Below are positions 3,713-8,078 of a DNA stretch of 64,000 nt, piece after piece. Numbering within the stretch: position 1 is the stretch's first letter; every line of letters starts with the position of its first letter. Under the pieces are notes generated by a model, which saw nothing but the letters and a program-made list of their open reading frames with translations, was not told the DNA's origin and made no database searches. A program made the translations under genes and the position numbers. This DNA comes from an uncultured Sphingomonadaceae bacterium. GTDB taxonomy: Bacteria; Pseudomonadota; Alphaproteobacteria; Sphingomonadales; Sphingomonadaceae. The stretch is taken from contig CANMVC010000002.1 of the NCBI GenBank assembly GCA_947501325.1, forward strand, positions 558,001 through 622,000, given 5' to 3'.

Positions 3713-3821
3713 AATGCCCTTTTCTATATCTCCATAATCGCAGACCGCAAAGAGCGGTTGCGGCCTAAAGATTTTCATCTAATCTAATGGCCCGACATTA
3801 GGAGTGATATCGGACCATTTG

Positions 3822-4463
3822 ATGACAGATCAGAACACCACTACCGCAGATTATCTGGTCGCTCTGGGCCAAGTGCAGCGCTATCCCAGCAAGAATATAG
3901 AGCTGTGCATGCTGAAAAACTTCCTGAGGGCCGATGAGTGTGAACAGCTTATTCAACGTATTGATAAAGAACGCCGCCCGTCGACCATAGCGGACGCCAA
4001 TGGTGACGATTATTTTCGCACCAGTGAAACCTGCGATCTCGATCATGATGATCCTTTTGTCGCAGAAATTGACACCAAAATTTGCAACTTTGCTAATATT
4101 GCTCCGAAATTTGGCGAACCGCTTCAAGGGCAACGTTATGCCGAAGGGCAAGAATTCAAAGCCCATATCGATTTTTTCGATCCCAATGGCGAAGATTTCA
4201 AGAAGTTCTGCTCAATCTCTGGCCAGCGCACATGGACATTCATGATCTATTTGAACGAACCAGATGCTGGCGGCGCCACCCGCTTTGTGAAACTGAACAA
4301 GAAATTCGTGCCAAAGACAGGCAATATTTTATGCTGGAATAATGTACAGCCGGATGGCGCAATCAATAATCTGACGCTCCATCACGGCATGAAGGTACGC
4401 AGCGGCACGAAATATGTCATCACAAAATGGTTCAGAGAACGTGCTTGGCCGTGGCCAGAATAG
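3822..4463 (+). CDS. 2-oxoglutarate/Fe(II) oxygenase, prolyl 4-hydroxylase type
   Basis: A 213-residue enzyme of the P4Hc fold. The iron ligands are H115 and D117 (AHIDFF) and H187 or H188 (LTLHHGM), and K197 (GTKYVITKWF) would hold the 2-oxoglutarate carboxylate. The strand ending NEPDAGGATRF is typical of bacterial prolyl hydroxylases. I chose ATG 3822; a GTG at 3804 would have the AGGA too close. The substrate is unknown; bacterial members hydroxylate proline in proteins or free amino acids. The next gene is 33 bases downstream on the same strand, so co-transcription with the 5-oxoprolinase operon is possible but not shown. Confidence 0.85.
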   Translation: MTDQNTTTADYLVALGQVQRYPSKNIELCMLKNFLRADECEQLIQRIDKERRPSTIADANGDDYFRTSETCDLDHDDPFVAEIDTKICNFANIAPKFGEPLQGQRYAEGQEFKAHIDFFDPNGEDFKKFCSISGQRTWTFMIYLNEPDAGGATRFVKLNKKFVPKTGNILCWNNVQPDGAINNLTLHHGMKVRSGTKYVITKWFRERAWPWPE

Positions 4464-4496: not shown

Positions 4497-5717
4497 ATGA
4501 AAATAACGCGCTATCGGCCCGGCCCAGGCATTATGGTTTCAGCGGCCTTTATAGGCCCCGGTACCGTTACCGCCTGCACCCTTGCCGGCGCCAATTTTGG
4601 TTTTGCGCTCATCTGGGCCCTTGTATTTGCAACCGTTACAACGATTATTCTGCAATCCGTTGCAGTCCGGGTAGCGTTGGTCTCACGGCTGGGTCTGGCA
4701 GAGGCGATGATGCAGACCATCTCCTCCCCGCCGCTCAGATGGATGGCGGCTTTGTTGCTCATCGCAGCTTTGGCGCTTGGCAATGCCGCCTATGAGGCTG
4801 GAAATATCTCGGGTGCCGTTTTGGGTTTGGAGGCGTTCAGCGCTGAACTTGCTGGCAGCAGAGCTCTGGTCATATGCGGAATCGCTCTTTTGGCTGGGGC
4901 GTTGATATTATTGTCCAAACCAAGCTGGGTTGAACGGATATTGATCGCAATGGTGCTGTTGATGTGCCTGTCATTCCTGGCGACTTTCCTGATTACCAAA
5001 CCCGATTTTGGTGCCATCTTCAGTGGCGTCATACCTAGCATACCAGAGGGAGGGCTTTTGACCGCCATTGCTTTGATCGGTACAACCATTGTGCCCTACA
5101 ATCTGTTTTTGCATGCGGCGAGCGCGCGCGAGCGATGGACAGAAGAAAGCGGCTTGGCGGAAGCACAAACAGATAGCGCAATTTCCATAGGGCTCGGCGG
5201 ACTCATCTCGATTACAATATTGTCCACAGCTGCCGCCAGTTTATTTGGAAGCAACCGGGAAATTACCAGCGCCGTTGATATGGCTGAACAACTCAATCCC
5301 CTCTTCGGATCATTTGCGAGCGCGACATTGGGCGCAGGTTTTTCTGCCGCTGGCCTAACCTCAGCAATCACCGCTCCACTCGCCACCGGCTATATCGTCC
5401 AGGAAATATTTGGCGGCCGAGGAAAACAATCGTCGCGGATGCCGTTCAAAATCGGTGTCATTCTGGTCATTTTGTCCGGCACCTTTGGTGCACTGCTCAA
5501 CTACAAGCCCGTTGAAATCATTTTTGTAGCTCAGATTGCCAACGGGCTATTGCTACCGGTCATCGCTTTTTTCCTCATTAAGCTGGCCAATGATAGCGCC
5601 CTGCTGGGGCATCATGTTAATGGATGGCGGGGAAATGTTGCGGGAGCGGCTATATTGCTTGTGACGAGCTTACTCGGTATTCGGCTCATTGCGCGGGCCT
5701 TGGGATGGTGGCCATGA
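4497..5717 (+). CDS. Nramp-fold transporter lacking the metal-binding motifs (YcsG-like)
   Basis: A 406-residue, roughly 11-helix inner-membrane protein of the Nramp family. In true Nramp metal importers, helix 1 carries DPGN and helix 6 carries MPH, which coordinate the metal. Here the same places read GPGT (FIGPGTVTACTLAG) and VPYN (TIVPYNLFLHA), so neither site is kept. The stop overlaps the pxpA start by 4 bases. In Bacillus subtilis the Nramp-like ycsG is likewise next to ycsF and kipI-kipA, the pxpABC equivalents. I infer a non-metal substrate, with 5-oxoproline the obvious candidate. Family confident; substrate is inference. Confidence 0.8.
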   Translation: MKITRYRPGPGIMVSAAFIGPGTVTACTLAGANFGFALIWALVFATVTTIILQSVAVRVALVSRLGLAEAMMQTISSPPLRWMAALLLIAALALGNAAYEAGNISGAVLGLEAFSAELAGSRALVICGIALLAGALILLSKPSWVERILIAMVLLMCLSFLATFLITKPDFGAIFSGVIPSIPEGGLLTAIALIGTTIVPYNLFLHAASARERWTEESGLAEAQTDSAISIGLGGLISITILSTAAASLFGSNREITSAVDMAEQLNPLFGSFASATLGAGFSAAGLTSAITAPLATGYIVQEIFGGRGKQSSRMPFKIGVILVILSGTFGALLNYKPVEIIFVAQIANGLLLPVIAFFLIKLANDSALLGHHVNGWRGNVAGAAILLVTSLLGIRLIARALGWWP

Positions 5718-6472
5718 ACCGGTTTATTGATCTCAACGCTGATTTGGGTGAAGATGACAGCCTGGCTGGGATGGCTCGGGATATAGCGATTATGGATGTC
5801 GTTTCCAGCTGCAACATCGCCTGTGGCGGTCATGCGGGTTCACCAGACACGATGCGGGCCATGTTAGAGGCTGCAAAAGCCAAAAATGTTTCTGCGGGCG
5901 CACATCCCTCCTACCCTGATCGCGATAATTTTGGGCGGGTCAGCATGACCATTGATCCCATGGACTTGAAAGGCAATTTGCTCGGACAAGTCCGAACCAT
6001 CAAAACGATCGCAGCGGAAGTAGCAACGAGAATCACCCATCTGAAACCACATGGAGCGCTCTATAATGATGCGCAAGATAACGAAACGCTGGCCGACATA
6101 CTGATCGAGATAGCGAATATGGAACAATTGGCATTAGTCGGCATGGCAGGTTCTGCCGTCGATAAGAGGGCAAGAGAAAATGGCATTCGCATCATCGCCG
6201 AAGCCTTCATTGATCGGCGGTACACACCCCACTGTCGCCTAACGCCCCGCACTGAAAAAGGGGCTGTCATCACGGATGATGCCGAGCGGATAAAACAAGG
6301 CCTGGCCCTCGCACGAGGCAATCCGATATCCACGTCCCACAATCAGTCAAAAATCATTCAAGCCGAAACCCTTTGCCTTCATTCGGATAGCGATGGAGCC
6401 GTTGTCACAGCAAGGGCCATGCGCAACGCGTTGGAAAATGAGGGCATAGCAGTTGTGGCACCAGCCTTATGA
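5714..6472 (+). CDS. pxpA: 5-oxoprolinase subunit A (LamB/YcsF family)
   Basis: With PxpB and PxpC this forms the bacterial ATP-dependent 5-oxoprolinase, which opens pyroglutamate to glutamate. The 252-residue protein starts with the family signature DLNADLGE and has ACGGHAGSP, AHPSYPD and LKPHGALYND, all typical of YcsF. The start at 5714 overlaps the transporter stop as ATGA and has the signature at its proper N-terminal position; the track's 5624 start only extends into the upstream gene in another frame. It overlaps pxpB by 4 bases, so subunits A, B and C are translationally coupled. Confidence 0.93.
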   Translation: MNRFIDLNADLGEDDSLAGMARDIAIMDVVSSCNIACGGHAGSPDTMRAMLEAAKAKNVSAGAHPSYPDRDNFGRVSMTIDPMDLKGNLLGQVRTIKTIAAEVATRITHLKPHGALYNDAQDNETLADILIEIANMEQLALVGMAGSAVDKRARENGIRIIAEAFIDRRYTPHCRLTPRTEKGAVITDDAERIKQGLALARGNPISTSHNQSKIIQAETLCLHSDSDGAVVTARAMRNALENEGIAVVAPAL

Positions 6473-7134
6473 CCATCGCAGATATTCATGCTTGCGATGA
6501 CTGGCTTTCTTGCCGTCTCGAGAGTCTTGACGCGGTCCATGCTGCCAGTGCCGTTATACGAAGCCAAAAGACATGGCAGGAGGTGGTACCAGGGCTGGAT
6601 AGTATTGCTGTGCAATTTGATCCCGCCCAAACCACTCCAAAGCAAGCTATAGATTTGCTCCATAAGCAGTTGCTGCGACCAACCGCCGCGGCAGAGGCAC
6701 AAACAGATCCCATCACCATCCCGGTTTGTTATGATGAAATTTTCGCGCCTGACCGGGATTGGATAGCCGGGAAAATGGGCATTTCGACCGAAGCTTTGAT
6801 GGAATGGCATAGTAGCTTGCAATTTACGGTGACCATGCTGGGGTTCATGCCCGGCTTTGCCTATTTGCAATGCTGCGACGACATAGTGGAATTCGGGAGA
6901 CTGTCCAAACCCCGACAAAATATCGCTGCGGGTTCTATCGGCATTATTGGCGACCAGAGTTGCATCTATTCCTTCAACAGCCCGGGTGGCTGGCCCATAA
7001 TTGGGCGCACGCCAATTCAGCTATTTGACCCTGGGAAGGATCAACCAGCGCTACTCTCCGCCAATCAGCTTTTATCTTTCCGCCCAATTAGTAGAGTTGA
7101 ATTTGACAATCTCGCTGGAAAACAAGGCGAGTGA
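6469..7134 (+). CDS. pxpB: 5-oxoprolinase subunit B (KipI family)
   Basis: A 221-residue protein of the KipI/allophanate hydrolase subunit 1 family. The core is clear: PVCYD, LGFMPGFAYL, LSKPRQNIAAGSIGI and NSPGGWPIIGRT. PxpB works with PxpC to cleave the activated 5-oxoproline. Kinase-inhibitor activity is known only for the B. subtilis relative and is not implied here. Its start lies in the ATGA overlap with pxpA, and its stop overlaps the pxpC start. Confidence 0.93.
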   Translation: MTIADIHACDDWLSCRLESLDAVHAASAVIRSQKTWQEVVPGLDSIAVQFDPAQTTPKQAIDLLHKQLLRPTAAAEAQTDPITIPVCYDEIFAPDRDWIAGKMGISTEALMEWHSSLQFTVTMLGFMPGFAYLQCCDDIVEFGRLSKPRQNIAAGSIGIIGDQSCIYSFNSPGGWPIIGRTPIQLFDPGKDQPALLSANQLLSFRPISRVEFDNLAGKQGE

Positions 7135-8078
7135 TGCTGACAGTTGTTAAACCCGGCTTACAGACAACCTTACAAGGCGCCCCGTTTTCCGGTCATCGAT
7201 ATCTCGGCATGCCTGCTGCCGGCGCTGCTGATTGCTTGTCGCTTGCCTTGGCCAATCGTCTGGTCGGCAATATGCGTCACGCAACTGCTGTAGAGATTAC
7301 GTTGGATGAGGCAAAATTTACTGTCGAACGTCCCGGTATTCTAGCACTTACCGGTGCCGCCGGGTTTCTTCGGGTCGATGGTAGAAACCGCTCCTTACAT
7401 GAAGGCGTATCTGTAAAACCCGGAAATCAAATCCATATCGGTCCAGCTACTCAAGGCTGCCGCTCCTATCTGGCTGTTGCGGGCAGAATAGAAGCACGAT
7501 CCCTTTTGGGTGGGCAATCCACTTATCTTGGCGGAGGTCTCGGCGGGTTTCAGGGGCGCGCGTTAAGAGCCCGCGATAGGATTAAGTCAACGAACGGCTC
7601 CAGCTCTCCCCCAGCACAGAGAGAGACGCCCGAAACCCTGCACCCCAAAATATCCAATAATTTTATCCTGCGTATTAACACAGGCCCCGAGATTTCTATT
7701 TTAACCCCCTCTTCTCAAACGATACTATTTGAGAAGACCTATCAGGTAGGAGCGAGGACTAATCGCATGGGGTCAAGCCTAAAAGGCCCAACGCTGGAAC
7801 AGCAATGCCTGGCGCAGATGAATAGTGCGGCAGTCTTCCCTGGTACCGTTCAATGCCCACCAGATGGCGAACCGTTCCTGCTTGGGCCAGATGCACAAAC
7901 AACCGGCGGTTACCCGAGGATAGCGCAGGTGATTCGGGCAGATCGGCACTTGATCGGGCAAATTCGCACGGGATCCGTCATTCAGTTCGTGAAAGTATCC
8001 AACGAACGGGCGACAGAAATATATCGTAAGAAGCTATCACTTCTAACGCCTTGGCTGGGAGCCGTAAGCCTGTGGTGA
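7134..8078 (+). CDS. pxpC: 5-oxoprolinase subunit C (KipA/biotin-dependent carboxyltransferase-like)
   Basis: A 314-residue protein of the KipA/allophanate hydrolase subunit 2 family and the last subunit of 5-oxoprolinase. Recognisable blocks are MPAAGAADCLSLALANRLVG, LTGAAG, YLAVAGRI and the late QTTGGYPRIAQVI. The ATG at 7134 follows the pxpB stop as TGATG; a GTG at 7131 is an alternative. A short hairpin after the stop (GCGAAGG...CCTTCGC, 8083-8097) has no T-run. The cluster has no recognisable regulator of its own. Confidence 0.92.
   Translation: MLTVVKPGLQTTLQGAPFSGHRYLGMPAAGAADCLSLALANRLVGNMRHATAVEITLDEAKFTVERPGILALTGAAGFLRVDGRNRSLHEGVSVKPGNQIHIGPATQGCRSYLAVAGRIEARSLLGGQSTYLGGGLGGFQGRALRARDRIKSTNGSSSPPAQRETPETLHPKISNNFILRINTGPEISILTPSSQTILFEKTYQVGARTNRMGSSLKGPTLEQQCLAQMNSAAVFPGTVQCPPDGEPFLLGPDAQTTGGYPRIAQVIRADRHLIGQIRTGSVIQFVKVSNERATEIYRKKLSLLTPWLGAVSLW

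Follow-up and report, generated by a model that had tools for sequence, protein, structure and literature searches.

Proteins of the Nramp fold (Pfam PF01566) are usually treated as metal transporters, a practice that RefSeq naming follows, and for the studied family encoded beside 5-oxoprolinase genes the literature is divided between manganese (Bacillus subtilis YcsG, 2023) and 5-oxoproline (Corynebacterium glutamicum PxpT, 2026). YcsG was renamed MntG and assigned as a manganese importer from genetics and from overexpression, which raises cellular Mn; its authors argued that a polar effect could account for the 5-oxoproline phenotype seen earlier with ycsG (PMC10448178). To grow on 5-oxoproline, C. 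glutamicum requires pxpT, whose product shares 50% identity with YcsG, and the gene was complemented in trans (PMC13274462). A. baumannii MumT has been described as a Mn transporter beside urea carboxylase and was reported to support Mn accumulation (PMC5050338). YcsG/MntG, PxpT and MumT share with the protein described here the PF01566 fold, an operon with pxpA and PxpB/PxpC-type genes, and Gly, Asn and Tyr at the positions of D56, E134 and H232 (DraNramp numbering). According to a 2026 preprint, MntG falls in ‘G-motif 3’ of a Nramp-related assemblage that is paraphyletic; the groups besides G-motif 3 and NRMT are there termed uncharacterised, and the rooted phylogeny derives the canonical Nramps from among the Nramp-related proteins (PMC12873925). 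Here we analysed a 64,000-nucleotide stretch from an uncultured Sphingomonadaceae bacterium (contig CANMVC010000002.1, positions 558,001 to 622,000; termed the window), in which pxpABC forms a tight operon with the gene of a Nramp-related transporter (4497–5717) from another family, designated GPGT/VPYN after its motifs.

The four genes are joined by 4-base overlaps (ATGA at 5714–5717 and 6469–6472, GTGA at 7131–7134). All three PxpABC subunits are present at full length, each passing its Pfam cut-off, and their enzymatic identity is assigned from gene and domain matches. The original prediction had tied the transporter to pxpA-pxpB-pxpC through four overlapping genes, with which coordinates, overlaps and Pfam matches agree. 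In our assessment the transporter probably imports 5-oxoproline (glutamate in cyclised form), related cyclic amides being perhaps the substrates in some branches of its family. The residues that hold the metal in Nramps have been lost and relatives of the protein stand beside three kinds of enzyme acting on such rings, so that 5-oxoproline, not manganese, is the most likely cargo.

Alignment with DraNramp placed F-I-G20-P21-G22-T23 of the window protein opposite D56-P-G-N59 in transmembrane helix 1 (TM1), and T-T-I-V199-P200-Y201-N202 opposite A-T-V-M230-P-H232 in TM6. D56 is thereby replaced by G20, N59 by T23, A227 by T196, M230 by V199 and H232 by Y201. GPGT was unchanged in all of 66 homologues, as was V-x-Y-N, P200 being Gly in five of them; T23, Y99, N103, T196, T197, V199, Y201, N202, S289, Q346 and N349 never varied. 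The hallmarks of the family are GPGT in TM1, GNxxYExGN in TM3 and TTxVPYNLFLH in TM6. An AlphaFold2 model (predicted confidence, pLDDT, 92.9) has TM1 and TM6 broken, and the closest solved structures returned by Foldseek were DraNramp, EleNRMT and BfraNramp (template-modelling score about 0.8, and about 0.81–0.84 for DraNramp and EleNRMT), the amino acid carriers ApcT, AdiC and LAT1 scoring far lower. A viral structure library returned distant amino acid transporters only. Together with the full-length PF01566 match (residues 25–376), these data bear out what had been noticed earlier, namely that DPGN and MPH have become GPGT and VPYN with loss of the metal-binding residues while fold and length are kept.

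The protein has the fold, length and TM1/TM6 breaks of canonical Nramp/SLC11 transporters (MntH, DraNramp, BfraNramp), from which it differs by the replacement of DPGN, MPH and the TM3 Glu, at about 22–25% identity. EleNRMT, a Mg2+ carrier, is 27% identical and shares the TM10 motif NGLxLP; NRMT proteins, however, keep acids at the D56 and E134 positions and carry TIAPW in TM6, and the TM1 Asp, TM3 Glu and TM6 APW of these Mg2+ carriers are all absent from the window protein. The D56 position is Gly and the E134 position Asn in 23 of 23 GPGT/VPYN members compared and likewise in nine of nine YcsG/MumT relatives; both positions are acidic in the canonical, NRMT-like and DPSG-type groups of the alignment. 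MAFFT and hhalign profile-profile alignment agree on the register of TM3, with N103 opposite E134. Cellier's papers appear to place TM3 about one turn away from this, so that E100, Gln in nine of the 66 homologues, would be the ancestral Glu (PMC10606218). With Gly and Asn in place of both site acids, the site would be better suited to an anion, 5-oxoproline for instance, than to divalent cations. The protein also fits the ‘orphan outgroup’ of Slc11 within PF01566, defined by V-Y with a preceding Thr in helix 6 (V199, Y201, T196) and Y-x3-N in helix 3 (Y99, N103). The available part of that paper gives no function or gene context for the group (PMC10606218), which is here tied to 5-oxoprolinase-type enzymes.

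As a control set, the PF01566 proteins of 301 genomes of the order were sorted into motif classes (canonical DPGN/MPH, DPSG/ISPY, GTGS, GPGT/VPY and a few rare ones), and neighbours were counted within 1.2 kb. A 5-oxoprolinase-type gene adjoins 15 of 19 GPGT/VPYN genes, all at that distance, versus 1 of 67 other Nramps (Fisher p 2.7e-12, the rows not being independent); the single linked gene outside the class, L090, is of the YcsG/MumT type. Eight of the 15 lie in pxpABC operons and seven directly beside the gene of an OPLAH-like protein of ~1,210 amino acids, a HyuA-HyuB fusion with the domains Hydant_A_N (PF05378), Hydantoinase_A (PF01968) and Hydantoinase_B (PF02538). This single-chain layout is that of the eukaryotic OPLAH-type 5-oxoprolinase. 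The name OPLAH-like is given to these partners on the strength of domain make-up and length. They (~1,200 amino acids) form three sublineages, two of them at 49% and 40% identity to the main one. Their nearest solved relative is an N-methylhydantoinase of 1,288 residues, and 5-oxoprolinase activity is therefore likely, not proven; hydantoinase or another lactamase activity may occur among them. Within the order, few genomes (14 of 301) encode PxpA and many (188) an OPLAH-like protein; the window genome has pxpA and, by genome search, no OPLAH-like gene. In one genome (G235) the transporter gene (L074) was found at the genomic position of the window, judged by eye from general secretion pseudopilin genes, fabZ and bamA, without pxpABC, and no pxpA was found in that genome.

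Beyond the order, genomes of 84,980 species were scanned and the best 80 homologues kept. These come from Alpha- and Gammaproteobacteria, Bacteroidota, an acidobacterial bin and Streptomyces; 51 have pxpA as neighbour (one at a contig end), nine an OPLAH-like fusion and 20 neither. Fifteen genomes of these 20 carry pxpA elsewhere and two more an OPLAH-like gene; a search for a partner gene shared by the 20 found none. Haloarchaeal plasmid homologues with GPGT/VGYN have split hydantoinase A and B genes (HyuA/HyuB) downstream in four of five cases, and at the haloarchaeal loci L174, L175, L176 and L177 a gene of the Asp/Glu racemase family occurs twice and a CopG-family gene upstream in several. 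With their HyuA/HyuB genes, these loci resemble an operon for the use of cyclic amides. In actinobacteria 13 loci were examined; the split HyuA/HyuB pair is present at five of them, and at four the stretch contains pxpA. In quick, unrooted trees the GPGT class forms one side of a branch with support 86 (98 rows) and 96 (54 rows). Within this branch of the 98-row tree the partner enzyme switches at least four times between PxpABC, fused OPLAH-like protein and split HyuA/HyuB. This count is a better measure than the linkage counts, since the latter are not phylogenetically independent, and the repeated replacement of the neighbouring enzyme by another that acts on 5-oxoproline or a similar ring points to a shared substrate. 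The RefSeq label of the homologues checked, ‘Nramp family divalent metal transporter’, is probably wrong. In the open-access literature, which excludes the 2017 pxpABC paper, no link of this family to 5-oxoprolinases or hydantoinases was found, nor anything on hydantoinase together with Nramp.

The split partners also raise the question whether the window transporter itself imports some other cyclic amide or amino acid derivative processed by its neighbours, such as a hydantoin, D-5-oxoproline, a hydroxylated or N-substituted 5-oxoproline or another lactam. Family members beside HyuA/HyuB and a racemase-family gene are arranged as in hydantoin pathways, the HyuA/HyuB families include hydantoinases and caprolactamase, and in the clade of the window a 2-oxoglutarate (2OG) oxygenase gene lies upstream. 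We regard this as unlikely for the window, where the partner is PxpABC with its established substrate 5-oxo-L-proline (PMC13274462). The oxygenase gene, P4H-like, immediately precedes that of the transporter at about a dozen sphingomonad loci with pxp genes; it is nevertheless a common resident, occurring in 222 of the 301 genomes of the order and often there without pxp. A part for it in the pathway is accordingly unsupported; it is probably a resident gene next to which the operon sits, and its membership of the operon is uncertain.

The described family of YcsG and MumT was sampled through the pxpA-linked Nramps of L. plantarum, Klebsiella, Moraxella, Deinococcus, Paracoccus, B. badius and A. 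baumannii, together with L090 and a Fusobacterium relative. These proteins are 17–21% identical to the window protein, which is no nearer to them than to canonical Nramps; they carry GPGF in TM1 and GGTVGGY in TM6. In the 54-row tree the two families form separate branches (support 96 for the window family and 100 for YcsG/MumT), and a branch uniting them has support 7. The pxpA operon is thus found in both families, the motifs and the branch of YcsG/MumT not in the window protein. A sequence search of the PDB sequence file did not find YcsG; Foldseek aligned the window model with the YcsG chain of 9a52 at 17% identity, and orthology with YcsG was rejected. YcsG would belong to the GPGF/GGTVGGY branch, judging from 9a52 and from the B. 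badius locus, which reproduces the set of genes known from B. subtilis (pxpA, transporter, putative hydro-lyase, pxpB, pxpC-type gene, IclR regulator), and PxpT would follow through its published identity to YcsG. YcsG/MumT operons often contain a YcsI-type putative hydro-lyase and a biotin carboxylase, both absent from the window operon. The comparison with B. subtilis ycsG-ycsF-kipIA in the original prediction is therefore an analogy only, and its expectation that all pxp-linked Nramps form one clade gave way to two clades. Its proposal of a 5-oxoproline importer, by contrast, has gained from the pairing with three enzymes of the 5-oxoprolinase/hydantoinase type. That the importer ‘evolved from Nramp’ is unsupported, because our trees are unrooted and the published rooted tree places canonical Nramps within the related proteins (PMC12873925).

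In A. baumannii (L208:3453-10914) a LysR-type regulator gene accompanies mumTLUHC in the published order (PMC5050338), with MumL a PxpA homologue, MumU a YcsI-like putative hydro-lyase, MumH a fused PxpB-PxpC homologue and MumC a biotin carboxylase. Given these homologies, the substrate of the mum operon may be a cyclic amide instead of, or besides, urea. Genes for YcsI-type putative hydro-lyases recur beside pxpA (L210, L215, L216, L208), once with a glutamate cyclase domain protein, and may point to D-5-oxoproline or D-glutamate metabolism.

Several observations weigh against 5-oxoproline import by the window transporter. No experimentally studied GPGT/VPYN member was found in the open-access literature. 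PxpT can serve as a precedent by analogy, coming from a different and remote family, and for other members of that family, YcsG and MumT, import of Mn is reported (PMC10448178; PMC5050338). One acid, E100, is retained in TM3 near the site in whichever register. In four genomes with the transporter (G235 and those of loci L120, L122 and L160) neither pxpA nor an OPLAH-like gene was found, split HyuA/HyuB not having been searched for. Three GPGT/VPYN relatives with Gly for H206 (L075, L081, L083) have no oxoprolinase nearby; their neighbours in all three genomes, by eye, include endonuclease III-like and guaA-like genes. Finally, the window genome was searched without finding a canonical Nramp, a ZnuA-type binding protein or a ZIP, which leaves no redundant importer to speak against a manganese role.

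An alternative is that the protein, its site altered, imports divalent metal (Mn2+ or Mg2+) and so supplies the pathway with a metal, the role claimed for YcsG/MntG and MumT. The Nramp fold, the overexpression and accumulation data, the RefSeq names and the absence of any other Nramp, ZnuA-type or ZIP importer from the window genome all speak for it, although 145 of the 301 genomes of the order likewise gave no Nramp match whatsoever. We nevertheless hold it to be very unlikely. No member compared retains either site acid or the Met/His, while the acids persist in NRMT-type Mg carriers and DPSG relatives; the linked enzymes are amide-ring hydrolases of three kinds; and the Mn evidence comes from a family of just 17–21% identity. 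The ycsG phenotype was possibly polar, as its authors say, yet pxpT was complemented in trans.

For 5-oxoproline import we infer the following course. The product of 4497–5717, a secondary transporter of the LeuT fold, would take up 5-oxo-L-proline (pyroglutamate). Inside the cell PxpA-PxpB-PxpC, which is translationally coupled to it, would use ATP to open the ring, and the resulting glutamate would serve as a source of carbon and nitrogen. Lactam and carboxylate would be bound at the TM1/TM6 breaks by T23, Y201, N202 and N103, without the two Nramp site acids. A cation gradient may drive uptake, possibly of H+ with involvement of E100 or H206. In lineages with split HyuA/HyuB and a racemase as partners the substrate may be another cyclic amide. 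The opposite direction, export of 5-oxoproline or its exchange for glutamate in relief of a spontaneous build-up, appears extremely improbable. Some relatives in the APC superfamily are exchangers. Cyclisation of glutamate and glutamine forms 5-oxoproline in all cells (PMC13274462), but a cell bearing 5-oxoprolinase has little need to export its substrate and the studied analogue, C. glutamicum PxpT, works in uptake.

Linkage to 5-oxoprolinase genes is seen in two Nramp-related families that are remote from each other. We suggest tentatively, at somewhat less than even chances, that both of them, GPGT/VPYN as well as YcsG/MumT, are devoted to the import of 5-oxoproline and other cyclic amides, not of metals, and that the missing pair of site acids marks carriers of organic substrates across PF01566. 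If so, many ‘metal transporter’ annotations and the Mn roles of YcsG and MumT need re-examination. Because the GPGT/VPYN family, itself unstudied, matches the other in site chemistry and has 5-oxoprolinase-type partners of three alternative kinds, it offers an independent route to deciding between manganese and 5-oxoproline, and it bears on the division of an APC-superfamily fold between ions and organic substrates. Its transporters would also account for how many Alphaproteobacteria, Bacteroidota and haloarchaea take up 5-oxoproline, a step so far missing.

Table 1. Features of the transporter-pxpABC locus (positions in the window).
Feature	Position	Strand	Basis
Nramp-fold transporter, 406 aa, GPGT/VPYN family, pxpT-like but not a YcsG/MumT ortholog	4497..5717	+	PF01566 E 7.9e-75; tree, identity, model
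G20-P21-G22-T23 codons, TM1 unwound segment in place of DPGN	4554..4565	+	DraNramp alignment; invariant in 66 homologues
G95-N103 codons, TM3; N103 at the position of the conserved Glu (E134) of canonical Nramps	4779..4805	+	Alignment and profile alignment, same register; N103 66/66
V199-P200-Y201-N202 codons, TM6 break in place of MPH	5091..5102	+	DraNramp alignment
pxpA, 5-oxoprolinase subunit A (LamB/YcsF)	5714..6472	+	PF03746 E 5.5e-75; NCBIfam NF003814 above cut-off
pxpB, 5-oxoprolinase subunit B	6469..7134	+	PF02682 E 2.3e-53; TIGR00370 E 4e-40
pxpC, 5-oxoprolinase subunit C	7131..8078	+	PF02626 E 1.6e-74; NF045499 E 5e-67
2OG-Fe(II) oxygenase, P4H-like	3804..4463	+	PF13640; 33 bp upstream of transporter gene

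Against the narrower family models, pxpB reached 137.3 bits with TIGR00370, slightly short of the cut-off of 145.6, and pxpC scored under the equivalog cut-off of NF045499.

Two further Nramp-related classes were observed. The DPSG/ISPYLFFWQ proteins (L037, L038, L044 and others), among the two commonest Nramp-related classes of the order, keep the acids at D56 and E134, with Gly for N59 and Ser for M230, and are possibly NRMT-like. The IGTGS class (L076, L078, L079, L080, L082) has neither site acid and no oxoprolinase neighbour.

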